Source: a virus | Strand: one strand, 5' to 3' | IMG/VR virus record: IMGVR_UViG_3300046004_001066 | Location: 1-35,578 of that record | DNA length: 35,578 bases | Part shown: one piece after another, positions 9,179 to 35,257 of the stretch | Layout: every line of letters starts with the position of its first letter | Position numbering within the stretch: the stretch's first letter is position 1 | Translations under genes and position numbers: made by a program | Notes under the pieces: generated by a model | What the model was told of the DNA's origin: nothing | Databases searched by the model: none | Seen by the model: the letters and a program-made list of their open reading frames with translations, nothing else

Positions 9179-9961
9179 ATGTTCAAAAATATTACTGCAT
9201 TTCTATTAGAAACACCTATTGACACACTTGACTTATCAGCTAACACCTTCACACCATGCACAGCGCAACAAGAAGTCTCACAAGGATTTGTTCCAGTAGA
9301 AGGCGAGCTAGTCTACACCGATACAAACACTCACCACCACATCGCCCTTAAAACCGAAACTAAGCGTGTACCTGCTGGGTTACTACGCGAAGAAATTAAC
9401 AAACGGATTGAGTCTTTACCGTTTCATCCAACTAAAGCTGAGAAAGACACAATTAAATCAAATGTTCATTTTGAGTTACTTGCAAAAGCCTTTCCAACAA
9501 GCAAAGTTACTGAGGCGTACATCACAGATAATACGATTGTCGTGAATACCAGTTCGTTAAAACTCGCGGAGGAGTTAGTTTCACAGTTACGCGTAGCTTT
9601 AGGCGGTCTAACAGCAACACTATACAACATCGAAGACATAACATTCAAAATGACTGATTGGGTTGATAAAGGTGATACCTTACCTGAAGGCTTGATTGTG
9701 GGTGATTCGGCGTTATTATTAGGTTTAGATTCATCAATAAAGTATAAGCGACATGATTTATCATGCAATGAGATTAAATCGCATATTGCTGATGGTTTAC
9801 AGGTGACATCTTTAGGTTTAGAATTAGAAGGTATTAAATTTACTTTGACTGAGGATTCGCAGTTTAAAAGTTTAAAATTCGACTATGAATCGGATGGATT
9901 TGATGCTGATTGCTTGTTATTAGCGGATGTGGTTGATAAGCTGTTAGCAACTGTGCGATAA
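9179..9961 (+). CDS. rdgC: RdgC-like recombination-associated protein, 260 aa
   Basis: Matches the RdgC family from its first residues: MFKNITAFLLETPID, then FTPCTAQQ, QGFVPV and HIALKTETKRVPAGLLREEINKRI. The KAEKDTIKSNVHFELLAKAFP segment and an SLKLAEELVSQLRVALGGL helix follow. Length (260) is a little below cellular RdgC (about 300). RdgC is a ring-shaped dsDNA-binding protein of beta/gammaproteobacteria that limits RecA filament formation. In a phage with its own annealing system it may keep host RecA off phage DNA (inference). A TATAAT at 9125-9130 could be the -10 of a promoter downstream of the terminator. CTTGGAG precedes the ATG. Confidence 0.88.
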   Translation: MFKNITAFLLETPIDTLDLSANTFTPCTAQQEVSQGFVPVEGELVYTDTNTHHHIALKTETKRVPAGLLREEINKRIESLPFHPTKAEKDTIKSNVHFELLAKAFPTSKVTEAYITDNTIVVNTSSLKLAEELVSQLRVALGGLTATLYNIEDITFKMTDWVDKGDTLPEGLIVGDSALLLGLDSSIKYKRHDLSCNEIKSHIADGLQVTSLGLELEGIKFTLTEDSQFKSLKFDYESDGFDADCLLLADVVDKLLATVR

Positions 9962-15554: not shown

Positions 15555-15572
15555 ATTTTTAGTTATTAACTA

Positions 15573-15602
15573 TTGACAAAAACCAATTATTCATGCTATG
15601 TT
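15573..15602 (+). promoter_or_regulatory. Promoter
   Basis: TTGACA (15573-15578), 18 bases, TATGTT (15597-15602). Transcription would begin about 25 bases before the ATG at 15634. Confidence 0.6.
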
Positions 15603-15633
15603 ACGGCTTTTACAACTTAACCTAACTATTATC

Positions 15634-15756
15634 ATGGACGAAAAAATTATCCGCCGCGACCAGCCCGAAGATTTCCCAGAAATTGATGAATACGATGACA
15701 TCAGCAACGAATTAGAATTGCTGGATATTTTTGATGACGAAGATGCACCTTTTTAG
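15634..15756 (+). CDS. 40-aa acidic protein ending in an SSB-like tip
   Basis: Asp/Glu-rich (ending DIFDDEDAPF). The last residues copy the acidic, Pro-Phe-terminated tip of bacterial SSB (DDDIPF), the docking peptide for RecQ, ExoI, PriA, RecO and others. The window's own SSB ends DYADDIPF. There is no DNA-binding domain, so the peptide could compete for SSB partners (inference). First gene after its promoter, but the ribosome site is weak (no GGAG). Confidence 0.55.
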   Translation: MDEKIIRRDQPEDFPEIDEYDDISNELELLDIFDDEDAPF

Positions 15757-15766
15757 ATAGAGCTAT

Positions 15767-15853
15767 ATGATTATTGAAAGTATCACAGTTACTGCTGGGT
15801 TATCCTCAGCGGTGTTAGGTTGGTTGTATTTTGTTTTACGAGGAATTTTATGA
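15767..15853 (+). CDS. Tiny single-pass membrane protein, 28 aa
   Basis: MIIESITVTAG followed by a hydrophobic run (LSSAVLGWLYFVLRGIL) spanning one membrane. Its TGA overlaps the next ATG (ATGA), which supports translation. The ribosome site is weak. Confidence 0.45.
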   Translation: MIIESITVTAGLSSAVLGWLYFVLRGIL

Positions 15854-16462: not shown

Positions 16463-17443
16463 ATGTCATTACTATCACAAATTACAAAAACAAACAAACA
16501 AACAGGTATCAAAGCGGTTATTTATGGCGCGACAGGAATGGGTAAAACAACCCTAGCGTGTTCAGCTCCTAAACCCTTGTTGATTCCAACTGAAGGTGGT
16601 TATACGGACGTAGACCCTGAGAAAGTGGCTATTTTACCACAAGTTATTCGGGATTTTGACGTATTGACTAATGTGCTGAAAGACTTGGTTAATTGCTACA
16701 GCGAAGAAAACGGTTTAGTTCTACCAGACGGTAGAGAAATTAAATCTATTGTTTTAGATTCTATCACAGCAACTGAGCGTCTTATTCACGATAAAATTAT
16801 TCGTTCAGATAAGAAGTTTTTACCAGGTAATCCTGCCAATGTAACGATGGAATCTGCAATCAACGGTTATTCTAGCGCGTACAACTCAGCGGCAGAAAAG
16901 GTATCTGAGTTGCTTCGCAGATTAGAATACTTTTCAAATCGCGGCATCAATGTGATTATTATTGCACATTCAATCAGCTATCTTGAAAAAGATATTGCGA
17001 TGGGAGAAGAATATACTTACACAGATTGTGCATTGTATTCACCACGCAACGGCAAGTTCTTAGGCGCAAGAGATTTATTGCGTCAGTATGTAGATTTGAC
17101 AGGTTATATGCACGCGCCATTCAATACGTTTAAAATTGGCGAAGGTAAGAATTCTGCTAAAGTTGCTAATATGACTGATGGAGTGAAATATGTCATCGGT
17201 GTGAACAAAAATCCACGTTATGAAGCTAAGAATCGCTACGGGTTAGAAAACATTGAACCTATTGTTATTCCTAAACACATCGGGTGGAACGCAATTGCAG
17301 CGAAGATTAAAGAATCTACAGGTAAAGATTTTATCAATCGTGAGTATCCGTTACCTGTAGATGGAGTTGAACCTGTAATAATCGCTGAACAATCGGTTGA
17401 AGAAGCTATCACAGAAGTGCAAACACCTGAGTTTGTTGACTAA
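16463..17443 (+). CDS. Sak4-like RecA-fold single-strand annealing ATPase, 326 aa
   Basis: Walker A GATGMGKT (22-29), Walker B SIVLDS (95-100), a Rad51/RecA-core pattern with RGINVIIIAHS as the strand after the B motif, and a C-terminal variable tail ending EVQTPEFVD. Proteins of this kind (AAA_24-type, Sak4) promote annealing or strand exchange with a cognate phage SSB and a Cas4-like exonuclease. All three are in this window (18301, 24976), and Gp157 is adjacent. CTTGGAGAAACAAA precedes ATG. Confidence 0.88.
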   Translation: MSLLSQITKTNKQTGIKAVIYGATGMGKTTLACSAPKPLLIPTEGGYTDVDPEKVAILPQVIRDFDVLTNVLKDLVNCYSEENGLVLPDGREIKSIVLDSITATERLIHDKIIRSDKKFLPGNPANVTMESAINGYSSAYNSAAEKVSELLRRLEYFSNRGINVIIIAHSISYLEKDIAMGEEYTYTDCALYSPRNGKFLGARDLLRQYVDLTGYMHAPFNTFKIGEGKNSAKVANMTDGVKYVIGVNKNPRYEAKNRYGLENIEPIVIPKHIGWNAIAAKIKESTGKDFINREYPLPVDGVEPVIIAEQSVEEAITEVQTPEFVD

Positions 17444-17702: not shown

Positions 17703-18215
17703 ATGTCACGCTCACTATACGAAATATCATACGAATATCAATTAGCATTTGACAACATAACTAATTTATTAGAAGATGTTGACATTGCAGATAAAGATGC
17801 TATTATTAGCAACACATTAGCCAATATAACTCATGAATTTGACAACAAGGCGTTAAATGTCGCGCGTTACATTGGAAATTTAGAACATGAGCTTCTTGGA
17901 GTTAAAGAAGCTACCAAACGGTTGCAAGTACGCGCTAAAGCTACCGAGAATAAGATTGACAAATTGCGCGAGTATCTTTTAAACGAGATGCGAAAATTAG
18001 ATAAAAAATCTATCAAGTCAGATGAAATTATGTTGACACTGCGAAACAACCCTGCTAAAGTGGTCATCACAGATGAAGAATCGCTACCAGCAGATGTTAA
18101 GTACAAAGTAACAGAAATAAAAGTTGACAAGAAGCTGATAGGTGATAAAATTAAATCTGGTGAAGATGTGCAAGGTGCGGTATTGACATCATCACAACGC
18201 TTGGAAATTAAGTAG
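17703..18215 (+). CDS. Siphovirus Gp157-family protein, 170 aa
   Basis: Matches Gp157 in order: EFDNKALNVARYIGNLEHEL, a long coiled coil with KRLQVRAKATENKIDKLREY, LLNEMRKLDKKSIKSDEIML, LRNNPAKVVI, then LPADVKYKVTEIKVDKKLI and DVQGAVL at the end. Members sit beside SSB and recombinase genes in phage replication modules. The first was linked to phage resistance in Streptococcus thermophilus, and the mechanism is unknown. Here it lies between Sak4 and SSB. Confidence 0.88.
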   Translation: MSRSLYEISYEYQLAFDNITNLLEDVDIADKDAIISNTLANITHEFDNKALNVARYIGNLEHELLGVKEATKRLQVRAKATENKIDKLREYLLNEMRKLDKKSIKSDEIMLTLRNNPAKVVITDEESLPADVKYKVTEIKVDKKLIGDKIKSGEDVQGAVLTSSQRLEIK

Positions 18216-18300: not shown

Positions 18301-18846
18301 ATGTCATTTTTAAATCAAAACTTTACTGGTGTACAAGAAGCAGGTGTATCAAACCGTCTTAACTTAGGTTGGTTCAATGTAATTATCACAGATATTGAAG
18401 ATAAAAAAACTCAAAAAGGTAATGAGTACCCTGAGTTTAAGTTTGAGGGTTATAAAGGTGAGTACAAAGGCAAGGTTATTACCACTCGTATGCTACTTTG
18501 CAACGTAGCTCATCCTACATCAGAACAAGCGCGAAACATTGCCAACGGGCAATTAAAATCAATTTTGATTGCAATTAACGCTATTGATGCTAACGGCAAC
18601 TGCAATCTTAAATCTTACGCAGATGCGAAAGGTAAGCCTTTCTGGTTGCGTACAGATGTTGATGAAAACGGTTACATCGTAGTCGCTGAGTTTAAACCTA
18701 AAGACTTTGAACCACCTTATGAAGGTTCTAACGAAGTACAACCTCCACCACCTGCTAGACGTGACGCTGGAAGTACAGCACAACCAGTACCAGCATCGGC
18801 TAATACAGGCGCAACGGCTGATTACGCTGACGACATTCCTTTTTAG
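18301..18846 (+). CDS. DUF669-type phage single-strand DNA-binding protein, 181 aa
   Basis: An OB-like core (LNLGWFNVIITDIEDKKTQK, YKGEYKGKVITTRMLL, KPFWLRTDVDENGY) as in DUF669 proteins found beside Sak4 recombinases. A Pro/Ala-rich flexible linker follows (about 140-172), then the acidic tip DYADDIPF. The tip matches the SSB docking peptide, which argues strongly for an SSB function. It coats single strands and recruits partners, probably Sak4 and helicases. Confidence 0.85.
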   Translation: MSFLNQNFTGVQEAGVSNRLNLGWFNVIITDIEDKKTQKGNEYPEFKFEGYKGEYKGKVITTRMLLCNVAHPTSEQARNIANGQLKSILIAINAIDANGNCNLKSYADAKGKPFWLRTDVDENGYIVVAEFKPKDFEPPYEGSNEVQPPPPARRDAGSTAQPVPASANTGATADYADDIPF

Positions 18847-18862
18847 TCTCCAAGCTAAGAGT

Positions 18863-18896
18863 CCCGCTTCGCCGACGGGTTAATTATCGGCTAACC
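18863..18896 (+). promoter_or_regulatory. H-type pseudoknot with competing hairpin before the HU gene
   Basis: CCCG (18863-18866) pairs with CGGG (18876-18879), and GCCGA (18871-18875) with TCGGC (18887-18891). The arms are interleaved with loops of 4, 0 and 7 bases. GGTTA (18878-18882) can instead pair with TAACC (18892-18896), breaking the first helix. GTTAATT (18879-18885) also matches AATTAAC (18905-18911), next to the AAGGA ribosome site. Confidence 0.5.
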
Positions 18897-18920
18897 TAAT
18901 ATAAATTAACAAGGATTCAC

Positions 18921-19199
18921 ATGAATAACAAACAAGACTTAGTTTCACTAGCTACCGTAAAACTGGCTGAAACAACAAAACTACCATTACCACTAAGCAA
19001 CGCTGAGATGAATCGCATTGTAGATGCTGTTACAGACGCAATTACTGAATTATCGTACAATGGTGGATTGCGTATCACAGGTTTAGGTACTTTTAAAGTT
19101 AAACGTCAAGCGGCTAGAAAAGGGTCTATGCAAGGTAAAGATTGGCAATCACCTGAAAAAGATGTCTTGCGGTTTAAAGCTGGTAAGCGTAAGATTTAA
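18921..19199 (+). CDS. HU/IHF-family DNA-bending protein, 92 aa
   Basis: N-terminal helices (LVSLATVKLAETTKLPLPLS, MNRIVDAVTDAITELSYNG), then the family signature GLGTFKVKRQAARKG and a beta-arm return (DVLRFKAGKRKI). The arm lacks the usual RNP-x-TG with its intercalating proline (SMQGKDWQSP instead), so bending may be weaker or different. Phage HU-like proteins compact or architecturally organise DNA during replication and packaging. It stands alone between two structured RNA regions. Confidence 0.9.
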   Translation: MNNKQDLVSLATVKLAETTKLPLPLSNAEMNRIVDAVTDAITELSYNGGLRITGLGTFKVKRQAARKGSMQGKDWQSPEKDVLRFKAGKRKI

Positions 19200-19332
19200 A
19201 TTATACAAACTCTTGTTCAAAGAGTCTAAATTTGAACACCTCTTTTATAACTTCTTCACACTGTGGAAGTAAAACTTGGTGTTAATCCTCCTGATTTGTG
19301 AGTAATAACAAATCTTCTAATTTCATTTTAAA

Positions 19333-19367
19333 AACCCTACCCGTATCTCCGAGGGTTATATCGGAGA
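19333..19367 (+). promoter_or_regulatory. H-type pseudoknot
   Basis: AACCC (19333-19337) pairs with GGGTT (19353-19357), and TCTCCGA (19346-19352) with TCGGAGA (19361-19367). Arms are interleaved with loops of 8, 0 and 3 bases. The second helix is followed by GTCTATTTT, so it could also terminate transcription. Confidence 0.5.
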
Positions 19368-19394
19368 GTCTATTTTAATAATTAGGTTATTGAA

Positions 19395-19461
19395 ATAAAC
19401 TAGCTAAGTGAATTATAATTGTCTAAAGGCGAGTTTTTCATCACAAACTTAGCTGGTTTAT
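19395..19461 (+). promoter_or_regulatory. 15-bp stem with 37-base loop ahead of tRNA
   Basis: ATAAACTAGCTAAGT (19395-19409) pairs with ACTTAGCTGGTTTAT (19447-19461), with a single G-T pair. It ends 13 bases before the tRNA. Confidence 0.6.
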
Positions 19462-19474
19462 AATACATTGCAAT

Positions 19475-19549
19475 GTGACGGTAGCATAATCAGGTTAATG
19501 CCTTCTACTCATAATAGAATTTATGCAGGTTCGAGTCCTGTCTGTCACA
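19475..19549 (+). tRNA. tRNA with CAT anticodon (elongator Met or Ile2)
   Basis: A complete cloverleaf: acceptor GTGACGG/CTGTCAC (one G-T), D-stem GCAT/ATGC with an AATCAGGTTA loop, anticodon stem TTCTA/TAGAA with loop CTCATAA (anticodon CAT, 19510-19512), variable TTTAT, and T-arm GCAGG/CCTGT with loop TTCGAGT. The discriminator is A and CCA is not encoded. The 1-72 pair is G-C and the anticodon stem lacks three G-C pairs, so it is not an initiator. Met elongator is likeliest. An isoleucine tRNA with lysidine-modified C34 is the alternative. Confidence 0.9.
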
Positions 19550-19560
19550 CTAAATAATTG

Positions 19561-19595
19561 AACTTCATGTAACCTAGGCTATTACATGAAGTTTT
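19561..19595 (+). terminator. 12-bp perfect hairpin just after the tRNA
   Basis: AACTTCATGTAA (19561-19572) pairs with TTACATGAAGTT (19582-19593) around 9 bases, followed by only TT. It may end the tRNA transcript, serve as a processing site, or be a helix of a larger RNA continuing downstream. Confidence 0.6.
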
Positions 19596-19800
19596 GACCA
19601 GCAACACTTAGGCTACTTGTGCAAGAAGTCAGAATGTGAAAACGACTGGGATTTTACACAACAGTACGAACCGTTGCTGAAATTACGGCACGTTTGGTAG
19701 CATTGGCGAAACAACGCTACACACTTTAGGCTAACGGGAATTCCGTCACTACGTTAGTAACACTCTAGCTGTCGAGCTTAAATTCGGCTTTATTTAACCT
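19596..19800 (+). ncRNA. Candidate structured non-coding RNA, about 200 nt
   Basis: No ORF. CAGCAAC (19599-19605) closes with GTTGCTG (19673-19679), enclosing TGTGAAAA/TTTTACACA (19635-19660, one bulge). Next is GTAGCATTG/CAACGCTAC (19697-19720, one mismatch, GCGAAA loop). CTAACG/CGTTAG (19731-19757) overlaps ACGG/CCGT, and TTAAAT/ATTTAA (19778-19797) follows. I recognise no known family. Confidence 0.5.
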
Positions 19801-19817
19801 TTTAATGAGTACCAAAA

Positions 19818-20150
19818 ATGAACAAACTATTAAAATTTTTAATGCCAAAAACAGCACGTCGGATTGATAAGCAACAAAGAGAAATTGCTGAACTTGAGAA
19901 AGCAAACGCTTATTTAAAAACTAGACTAGGTTCTAAAGACGACATTCGTGAAAAGAAGCCTGTTAGGAATGGTTTGGTTTCCACATCAGTAACTAGCAAA
20001 TCGTCGCCTGTTACAAGCGCCAATTCACCAGTAAGAAGTTCTGTTGACACATTCACACCAACAGCTTATAGTGATTCGTCGTATAGTAGCTACTCATCAA
20101 GCTCATGTGACAGCGACTCTTGTTGTAGCGACTCTTGTTGTAGCGATTAA
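19818..20150 (+). CDS. Coiled-coil protein with Ser/Cys-rich tail, 110 aa
   Basis: Residues 15-45 form a short coiled coil (DKQQREIAELEKANAYLKTR). The second half is Ser/Thr-rich and ends in a run of Ser, Asp and paired Cys (CDSDSCCSDSCCSD), encoded by a near-exact 18-base repeat. Such Cys/Ser tails recur on small phage proteins of unknown role and could bind metal or be lipidated. The ribosome site is weak. Confidence 0.68.
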   Translation: MNKLLKFLMPKTARRIDKQQREIAELEKANAYLKTRLGSKDDIREKKPVRNGLVSTSVTSKSSPVTSANSPVRSSVDTFTPTAYSDSSYSSYSSSSCDSDSCCSDSCCSD

Positions 20151-20167
20151 ACTTATTGGAGAAACAG

Positions 20168-20350
20168 ATGATAAATTACGACTCAGACACCACAAACGAA
20201 AGTGAAATTATTTGTCCTTACTGTGGATATAAACACCAAGATTCACAAGAATTCTCAAATGAAGGTGAAGTAAATTGCGATGAATGCACTAAGATGTTTC
20301 ACATTGTTAGGGACGTAGAGGTTACCTATTCAACATATAAGGTATATTAA
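20168..20350 (+). CDS. Zinc-ribbon protein, 60 aa
   Basis: CPYCGY near residue 16 and CDEC near residue 37 form a two-knuckle zinc ribbon of the kind found in small phage proteins. ATG 20168 has TTGGAGAAACAG upstream. An in-frame TTG at 20156 is not needed. Confidence 0.75.
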   Translation: MINYDSDTTNESEIICPYCGYKHQDSQEFSNEGEVNCDECTKMFHIVRDVEVTYSTYKVY

Positions 20351-33449: not shown

Positions 33450-33534
33450 GATAACGACAAAAACTTGATGACGTTATCAACAAAATCATTATAATGCTAC
33501 AAAACGGTTTCGACCTTCTACCGATAAAGAAGGT
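33450..33534 (+). promoter_or_regulatory. Promoter and leader hairpin of nrdA
   Basis: TTGATG (33465-33470), 19 bases, TATAAT (33490-33495). GATAACG (33450-33456) and CGTTATC (33472-33478) are inverted arms over the -35. ACCTTCT (33513-33519) pairs with AGAAGGT (33528-33534) near the expected transcript start. This gives nrdA its own transcription despite the insertion. Confidence 0.58.
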
Positions 33535-33556
33535 TCACATTTACAAGAGATTTACC

Positions 33557-35257
33557 ATGTCAACTAAATACGCAAAACTATCAGTCGAAAGAAAAGAACT
33601 ACAGTCACAAGGAGTATTACCAGATTGGTTTATTACGGGCGGTTATCAACTATTTAAAGAAAAGTATGATTACTCTACCAGCGGACAATCATTTAAAGGT
33701 CAGATTGAACGTATCGCTATGACAGCCGCATCCCATCTACCTAAAGATAAATATGAGGAAGGAGCTAAATGGTTCTTCGATTTATTATGGAAAGGGTGGT
33801 TGTCAGCAAGTACACCTGTTTTGTCTAACACAGGGACTAAAAGAGGATTACCTGTATCATGTGCGGCTAATGTAATTGAAGATTCTGTAGATGGGTTTTA
33901 TTCGGCTTTAAGAGAGGTTGCGTGTTTAACAAAAGCAGGGTTCGGAACAGCTAGTTATATGGGCGATATTAGACCGAGAGGTTCTGTTATTTCTGATGGA
34001 AATAAAGCGTCTGGTTTAGTACCTGTATTTGAAGATTTTGTCAGAATGTCCCAGAAAGTTACTCAAGGAACTCGCAGGGGAGCATGGGCTGGTTACGTTC
34101 CTATGGAACACGGAGATTTCTTTGAATTATGTGATTGGATTGCTGCAAATCCTGATAATGCAAATGTTGGTTGGAATATATCTGATGAGTTTAATAAGCG
34201 TTTAAACGAAGGTGATTTTGATGCAGATGCACGTTATAAACGGGCTATGAAGTTAAAGATGGTCACAGGTAAAGGATATTTTTGCTTTATTGATAAAGCG
34301 AATAGACAAGTTCCTGAGATGTATAAAAAGCACGGTTTAACAGTGAAATCATTTCAGCTCTGTAACGAAGTGTCTTTATTTTCAGACGAAAACCACACAT
34401 ACACTTGCATTTTAAGTTCAATGAACTTATCAAAATATGACGAATGGAAAAATACCGACGCAGTGTTTTGGTCAACAGTGTTCTTGGATTGTATTTGTGA
34501 AGAATTCTTAACTAAAGCCAGAACAATTGCTGGTTTAGAAAAAGCAGTGAGATTCACAGAGAAAGGTCGTGCATTAGGTTTAGGACAATGTGGTTTACAT
34601 AGTTATATGCAAGACAATATGATTGCGTTTGATTCGTTAGATGCTCAGTTTAAAATGCTTGAAATGAGCAAGCATATTGAAGAAGAATCGTTGCGTGCAT
34701 CACAATGGTTAGCTCAAGAACTAGGTGAACCAGAATGGTGTAAAGGTTTTGGAGTTCGTAATACACACAGAACAACTTGCCCACCGACAAAATCAACAGC
34801 TTTGATTATGGGTGGTATCTCCGAGGGTATCAATCCTTTCCCAGCAAATACTTTTTCACAGAAAACAGCAGGTGGAGAAGTCGATAGAATAAACCCATCG
34901 CTCGTTAATTTGATGAAGAAAAAAGGTATTTTTACCCGTGAACATATCGAAGAAGTTGTAGATACAGGTGGTTCAGTACAATCCGTAAATTGGCTAACTG
35001 ATGATGAAAAGAAAGTTTTTAAAACAGCCTTTGAAATTAACCAAAATGTTTTAGTTCGTTATGCGGCGTTGCGTAATAAGCATATCTGCCAATGGCAATC
35101 TGTAAACTTATTTATTCCGTCTGATACGCCAGAGGAAGTTATTTCTGAGTTGCATGAGGATATGTTTAATAATGAAGATGTGTTAGGCAGTTATTACATA
35201 TACAGTCAAAGCGGATACAAACATCAGTCTGTGATTCAATGTGAGGCTTGTCAATAA
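33557..35257 (+). CDS. nrdA: Ribonucleotide reductase alpha subunit (class I), 566 aa
   Basis: Catalytic subunit reducing ribonucleotides. Redox Cys C102 (GLPVSCAAN), then QLCNE (C269 thiyl site, E271) and TYTCILSSMNL (C284), a PCET tyrosine pair in GSYYIYSQSGY near residue 543, and a C-terminal CEAC shuttle pair (C562, C565). The N-terminal ATP-cone domain of most NrdA proteins is absent, so allosteric inhibition by dATP is probably lost, as in other phage enzymes. ATG 33557 is chosen from homology and the AAGAG upstream. An in-frame ATG at 33494 lies within the promoter. Confidence 0.95.
   Translation: MSTKYAKLSVERKELQSQGVLPDWFITGGYQLFKEKYDYSTSGQSFKGQIERIAMTAASHLPKDKYEEGAKWFFDLLWKGWLSASTPVLSNTGTKRGLPVSCAANVIEDSVDGFYSALREVACLTKAGFGTASYMGDIRPRGSVISDGNKASGLVPVFEDFVRMSQKVTQGTRRGAWAGYVPMEHGDFFELCDWIAANPDNANVGWNISDEFNKRLNEGDFDADARYKRAMKLKMVTGKGYFCFIDKANRQVPEMYKKHGLTVKSFQLCNEVSLFSDENHTYTCILSSMNLSKYDEWKNTDAVFWSTVFLDCICEEFLTKARTIAGLEKAVRFTEKGRALGLGQCGLHSYMQDNMIAFDSLDAQFKMLEMSKHIEEESLRASQWLAQELGEPEWCKGFGVRNTHRTTCPPTKSTALIMGGISEGINPFPANTFSQKTAGGEVDRINPSLVNLMKKKGIFTREHIEEVVDTGGSVQSVNWLTDDEKKVFKTAFEINQNVLVRYAALRNKHICQWQSVNLFIPSDTPEEVISELHEDMFNNEDVLGSYYIYSQSGYKHQSVIQCEACQ

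Follow-up and report, generated by a model that had tools for sequence, protein, structure and literature searches.

A conserved, pseudoknot-rich RNA between an HU-like gene and a tRNA gene in an uncultured phage

The window analysed here is a linear IMG/VR virus record of 35,578 bases (IMGVR_UViG_3300046004_001066), an uncultured phage fragment of ~35.6 kb with 36% GC and 85% coding content. The genes surrounding the structured locus lie on the + strand, and the locus is laid out as follows:

16463-17443, + strand: Sak4-like recombinase
17703-18215, + strand: Gam/Gp157
18301-18846, + strand: SSB
18921-19199, + strand: HU-like DNA-binding protein gene, directly 5' of the element (PF00216, 6e-11; phrog_379)
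19208-19461, + strand: conserved core of a structured RNA, 254 nt (blastn, covariation, MFE z-score)
19475-19550, + strand: tRNA-Met(CAT) or tRNA-Ile2(CAU) (ARAGORN; Rfam RF00005, 58 bits; the relative's tRNA is 73% alike)
19561-19593, + strand: hairpin of 12-13 bp, then TTTT (fold z = -5.5)
19551-20348, + strand: segment absent from the relative, with ORFs at 19818-20150 and 20156-20350

A ribonucleotide reductase gene is found farther along the window. By this reductase, the top-ranked named phage is Limnohabitans phage DC31 (56%), and the window's SSB was found in no named phage. Between the end of the HU-like gene (19199) and the start of the following ORF (19818) lie 618 bases free of protein genes. 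The first-pass annotation of this DNA, made from the letters alone, had singled out this gap (19200-19817) as exceptional. It is the longest in the window, but its distinctness was overstated, as further gene-free gaps of 414, 357, 326 and 280 bases exist in a sequence that is 85% coding, part of which contain small ORFs (e.g., 15555-15819). The region 15555-15819 is a gap in the ORF list, which has a 60-aa limit, yet it holds conserved small ORFs that are retained in the relative and are likely real small genes; one of them is ~40 aa long and begins MDEKIIRRDQPEDFPEIDEYDD.

For comparison, we used the one related contig that spans the locus, IMG/VR record IMGVR_UViG_3300020045_005555 (34.5 kb, hereafter L055). 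Its proteins are 75% (Sak4), 73% (SSB) and 58% (HU) identical to those of the window, and its gene order at the locus is the same except for one extra small gene between SSB and HU. It carries a tRNA-Met at L055:7511-7586, as called by ARAGORN. By blastn, window positions 19250-19461 match L055:7191-7381 with 69% identity over 212 bases, and an alignment that includes the HU gene runs from 19050 to 19461 at 68% and then ends. The intergenic identity of 69% is about the level of the neighbouring genes. The conserved core, which is 223 nt long in the relative (L055:7159-7381), starts 8-15 nt past the HU stop codon in both phages. What separates it from the tRNA is 13 bases in the window versus ~130 different bases in L055. 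Conservation covers the part before the tRNA and extends neither to the spacer nor to what follows the tRNA. Also lying between SSB and HU is a second conserved non-coding stretch (18847-18898; L055:6544-6620) with a possible H-type pseudoknot, whose stems (CCCG 18863-18866/CGGG 18876-18879 and GCCGA 18871-18875/TCGGC 18887-18891) barely vary and which is reminiscent of translational operators in phages, among them the one of T4 gene 32 (PMC535899).

The core is built from three H-type pseudoknots, one hairpin whose 10-nt loop is invariant, and a stem of 14-15 bp whose interior does not vary. From 5' to 3', and including one hairpin particular to the window, its parts are:

19209-19237, + strand: pseudoknot A (S1 19209-19212/19222-19225; S2 19215-19220/19232-19237)
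19254-19282, + strand: pseudoknot B (S1 19254-19257/19266-19269; S2 19258-19263/19277-19282)
19293-19314, + strand: hairpin C, 6 bp in the window and 5 bp in L055, with the invariant loop TGAGTAATAA at 19299-19308 (covariation, fold)
19333-19367, + strand: pseudoknot D (S1 19333-19338/19352-19357; S2 19346-19351/19362-19367)
19371-19397, + strand: AT-rich hairpin of 11-12 bp, in the window only, a 19-nt insertion relative to L055 (alignment, fold)
19395-19461, + strand: stem E (19395-19409/19447-19461), 15 bp with one U.G pair (covariation, fold)

Pseudoknot D and stem E had been picked out in the first pass, the latter as a 15-bp stem with one G-T pair, and both are borne out by the comparison. 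Pseudoknots A and B and hairpin C had not been listed there. In pseudoknots A and B, the first and second loops are short and the third loops contain A residues. The third loop of pseudoknot A (CTAAAT at 19226-19231; CUAAAU in RNA) is identical in both phages, as is that of pseudoknot B (TAAAACT; UAAAACU in RNA). The same is true of the hairpin C loop, which reads UGAGUAAUAA as RNA, and of two strands of stem E, GTGAATTATA (19408-19417) and TTTTTCATCACAAACT (19434-19449), which as RNA read GUGAAUUAUA and UUUUUCAUCACAAACU, respectively. Stem E encloses a short stem (19417-19420/19432-19435), and its edge competes with the AT-rich hairpin for the final 3 bases of that hairpin. Pseudoknot D was also considered as a terminator; this was ruled out, as its U-rich tail is not conserved.

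The stems vary between the two phages while their pairing is largely kept. In S2 of pseudoknot A, three of the six pairs are changed on both sides with pairing maintained (GTTCAA/TTGAAC in the window versus GCTTGA/TCAAGC in the relative). For pseudoknot D, S1 has one double and one wobble change and S2 has two double changes, with none broken across the 5 + 4 shared pairs. Hairpin C has two double changes, counted after re-registering one gap, and folds with z = -4.0. Among the 15 pairs of stem E, 2 are double changes, 1 is a single change and 1 is broken, and its fold has z = -5.1 (0/200 shuffles). For pseudoknot B, S1 is invariant and S2 has one double change and one wobble change, with none broken. 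Overall, the stem-guided hand alignment, which biases the count, gives 49 pairs (33 unchanged, 11 double, 4 single and 1 broken).

To count covariation with no preset structure, all helices of at least 4 pairs that both sequences can form in a MAFFT alignment were collected, and changes on both sides of a pair were scored; the basis is two sequences from a single pair of phages. Three helices had at least two double changes, as compared to 0.29 in column shuffles (3/500 shuffles reached three), and within 70 columns the figures were 3 versus 0.13 (0/500). As a control that preserves true relatedness, we used 119 overlapping segments, mostly coding and similarly diverged, from elsewhere in the alignment of these two genomes. 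These averaged 0.16 such helices, with a maximum of 2, and a helix with three double changes was seen in none of the 119 versus once in the element. The three strong helices are S2 of pseudoknot A, S2 of pseudoknot D and stem E. Helices with one double change were no commoner in the element (6) than in the controls (6.1), which places pseudoknot B on weaker ground; taken alone, it is the weakest-supported of the three pseudoknots. The density of pseudoknot-like patterns is by itself ordinary (11/138 background segments hold as many). The minimum free energy of 19200-19474 has z = -4.3, with 0/200 shuffles as good. Two further features concern the transcribed strand and coding. First, every wobble pair of the stems reads as G.U when the + strand is taken as RNA, whereas the opposite strand would give A.C, which points to the + strand as the transcribed one. 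Second, the element appears to be non-coding, as it differs from its counterpart by indels of 10, 19 and 1 nt and no + strand ORF beginning within it exceeds 29 aa. What positions 19208-19461 encode is thus an RNA of the + strand that is conserved, covaries and is rich in pseudoknots, flanked by the HU-like gene and the tRNA. The suggestion in the first pass of a structured non-coding RNA beside a phage tRNA, for which covariation in a homologous intergenic region had been named as the check, is upheld with the one homologue in the searched collections, and upstream of the tRNA only.

We searched for further members by scanning viral contigs by RNR, Gam, Sak4, SSB, the 20835 ORF, two DNA motifs and HU, together with genome contigs, and L055 was the sole contig with the element. 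One other contig (L059) was rejected as a homologue, as its motif match was by chance and lies inside an ORF. A blastn comparison with 50,697 phages and 72,556 plasmids gave no credible match to the element. Covariance models of the 5' part (R1) and of stem E (R3) gave no third member among ~50 related records and 5 named phages (best other E-value of 0.13). Against known families, cmscan with Rfam 15 at gathering thresholds returned the tRNA alone in this locus, confirming the tRNA-Met of the first pass at 19475-19550 as ARAGORN does, and relaxed thresholds (E ≤ 10 for the window, E of 5 for the relative) yielded only the tRNA and chance matches, with no GOLLD, ROOL, ribozyme or riboswitch. 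These chance matches include IMES-3 in L055 (21 bits versus a gathering score of 55; E = 0.16). ARAGORN, which is able to detect tmRNA, gives only the tRNA in the window and its relatives. The best reading of these searches is a structured phage RNA of narrow distribution that is new and matches no catalogued family.

How the RNA is made and what it does can be proposed from its placement and its conserved loops. We favor a stable, trans-acting phage RNA that is co-transcribed with HU and freed from the tRNA by RNase P, to which we assign a probability of roughly one half. The element would most likely be transcribed within a Sak4-Gam-SSB-HU-tRNA unit, and an RNase P cut at the 5' end of the tRNA (19474/19475) would set the 3' end of the RNA. 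Co-transcription and an RNase P-set 3' end are probable because the HU stop codon is 8-15 nt away, no promoter conserved in both phages was found and, in the window, the tRNA lies just 3'. (A sigma-70-like site at 19390-19419, with 11/12 matches, is not conserved in L055 and is probably due to chance.) Once released, the knotted fold may shield the RNA from exonucleases, and it would work in trans as a stable RNA during infection. The invariant loops UGAGUAAUAA, CUAAAU, UAAAACU and UUUUUCAUCACAAACU are proposed to bind a partner, either protein or RNA, of phage or host origin; that unpaired loops are identical in both phages argues for such a binding partner and hence for action in trans. More tentatively, the element may represent an undescribed class of phage non-coding RNA: H-type pseudoknots with A-rich loops strung together, produced along with a tRNA, set free by the host's RNase P and acting in trans on translation or RNA turnover in host or phage.

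The same placement would also suit a 3'-UTR acting in cis within the HU (and SSB/Gam) mRNA, in which the knotted 3' end left after RNase P removes the tRNA would block 3'-to-5' exonucleases or, alternatively, would be a site where a protein (HU, SSB or an RNase) controls the upstream message in a manner resembling retroregulation. This version is consistent with the short distance from the HU stop codon (8-15 nt in each phage) and with the lack of a conserved promoter of the element's own, and structured 3'-UTR elements are rare but known in bacteria, with the L17 downstream element described and phage regulation of upstream genes cited (PMC2864571). Like the present element, the L17 downstream element is a structured RNA domain directly behind a gene (PMC2864571); it belongs to Lactobacillales and Listeria, and the present element has no Rfam match. 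However, a plain roadblock would need neither invariant unpaired loops nor three separate pseudoknots, and a compact folded RNA seems to fit the inserted hairpin and the changes in length better than a simple stem does. We consider regulation in cis plausible but less likely than the trans-acting RNA.

The first pass had also raised the idea that the 618 bases form one large RNA with the tRNA embedded in it. Such an RNA would resemble GOLLD, which is reported to occur frequently close to tRNA islands and in some cases to carry tRNAs within its linker (PMC12286853). All of the listed hairpins can be drawn, and the 12-bp hairpin at 19561-19593 is real, being 12-13 bp long with TTTT behind it. 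However, this hairpin is probably an intrinsic terminator or a 3' stabiliser of the tRNA transcript (a terminator scan flagged it solely on the - strand), so that the remaining block would sit behind a terminator-like structure. The closed multi-helix block and the hairpins listed behind it did not hold up: 19551-19817 folds with z = -2.0, and once the terminator-like hairpin is removed, 19596-19800 folds at chance level (z = -0.63; 49/200 shuffles fold as well). L055 also lacks this block, as it resumes within 21 bases after its tRNA at the equivalent of window position 20349 (L055:7608), and 19551-20348 had no match elsewhere among the related loci compared. This segment is either an insertion behind the window's tRNA or a deletion in L055, and it is not part of the RNA. 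As only the part before the tRNA is retained in L055, with a different spacer of ~130 bases, and Rfam matches the tRNA only, a single RNA of ~600 nt (19200-19817) is very improbable. The absent segment encodes two small ORFs (19818-20350), a Ser/Cys-rich protein of 110 aa and a zinc-ribbon-like protein of 64 aa, for which a family search gave only a sub-threshold zinc ribbon.

A DNA-level element, such as a replication origin, packaging site or protein-binding site, might be expected amid replication and recombination genes in an AT-rich stretch (30% GC); it is very improbable, since interleaved pairings with compensatory changes and G.U wobbles on one strand fit RNA and not duplex DNA. Least plausible of all is a tRNA-processing element (an HDV-like theta ribozyme or a 5'-leader processing structure): theta ribozymes are frequently tied to phage tRNA-Met, but they start at most 5 nt from a tRNA, at its 3' end, with trimming of the 3' trailer as their proposed role (PMC10879173), whereas the element lies 13 nt (window) or ~130 nt (relative) from its tRNA, no Rfam ribozyme matched and a nested double-pseudoknot descriptor gave 0 matches at the 3' ends of both tRNAs (descriptor background rate of 32%).

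The trans-acting RNA that we favor can be set beside several known phage RNAs. T4 RNA C and RNA D, stable small RNAs from the T4 tRNA cluster that are transcribed with the phage tRNAs and whose function is unknown, would be comparable to it as tRNA-linked phage small RNAs. GOLLD is likewise a structured phage or prophage RNA beside tRNAs with one conserved and one variable part, but many of its members exceed 800 nt and conserve the 3' region, whereas the element has 254 nt and a conserved 5' part (PMC12286853). The element thus shares the tRNA adjacency (window 19475, L055:7511) and has neither an Rfam match to GOLLD nor its large size with a conserved 3' region. ROOL is also phage-borne, near tRNA islands and with several pseudoknots and no known protein partner (PMC12286853); it is far more elaborate (stems P1-P19), and the element has no Rfam match to it. 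A homo-oligomeric RNA cage is a further hallmark of ROOL. The first pass could assign the locus to neither family, and we agree, regarding the element as a new candidate RNA of the general phage tRNA-associated kind. Theta ribozymes share a pseudoknotted RNA adjoining phage tRNA-Met (PMC10879173), but no such shape occurs at the 3' end of either tRNA. In the T4/RB69 gene 32 translational operator, too, an H-type pseudoknot lies close to the gene of a phage SSB (PMC535899); the operator sits upstream of the SSB start, whereas the element is downstream of HU and has three pseudoknots. GOLLD, ROOL and theta ribozymes are structurally remarkable RNAs adjacent to phage tRNAs, and the functions of GOLLD and ROOL are still unknown. 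A compact, covariation-supported element in the same placement provides another independent case. Its size (~250 nt) is amenable to structure determination and genetics, and its pseudoknot string and invariant loops lead to specific predictions on release by RNase P and binding of a partner.

Two observations concern other parts of the window. First, in two close relatives with ~87% DNA identity (L020, at L020:7133-9901, and L019), the counterpart of window 33494-35257, the ribonucleotide reductase large subunit, is a single 922-aa frame with an intein-like insertion of ~330 aa at the AQLC/NEITL site, and the window's copy is without the insertion. Second, the RdgC-like gene at 9246-9948 is inverted in another relative (L084:119-821), which carries nearby an extra 79-base copy of the end of this gene (L084:1303-1381, 90% identical), a sign of local rearrangement.
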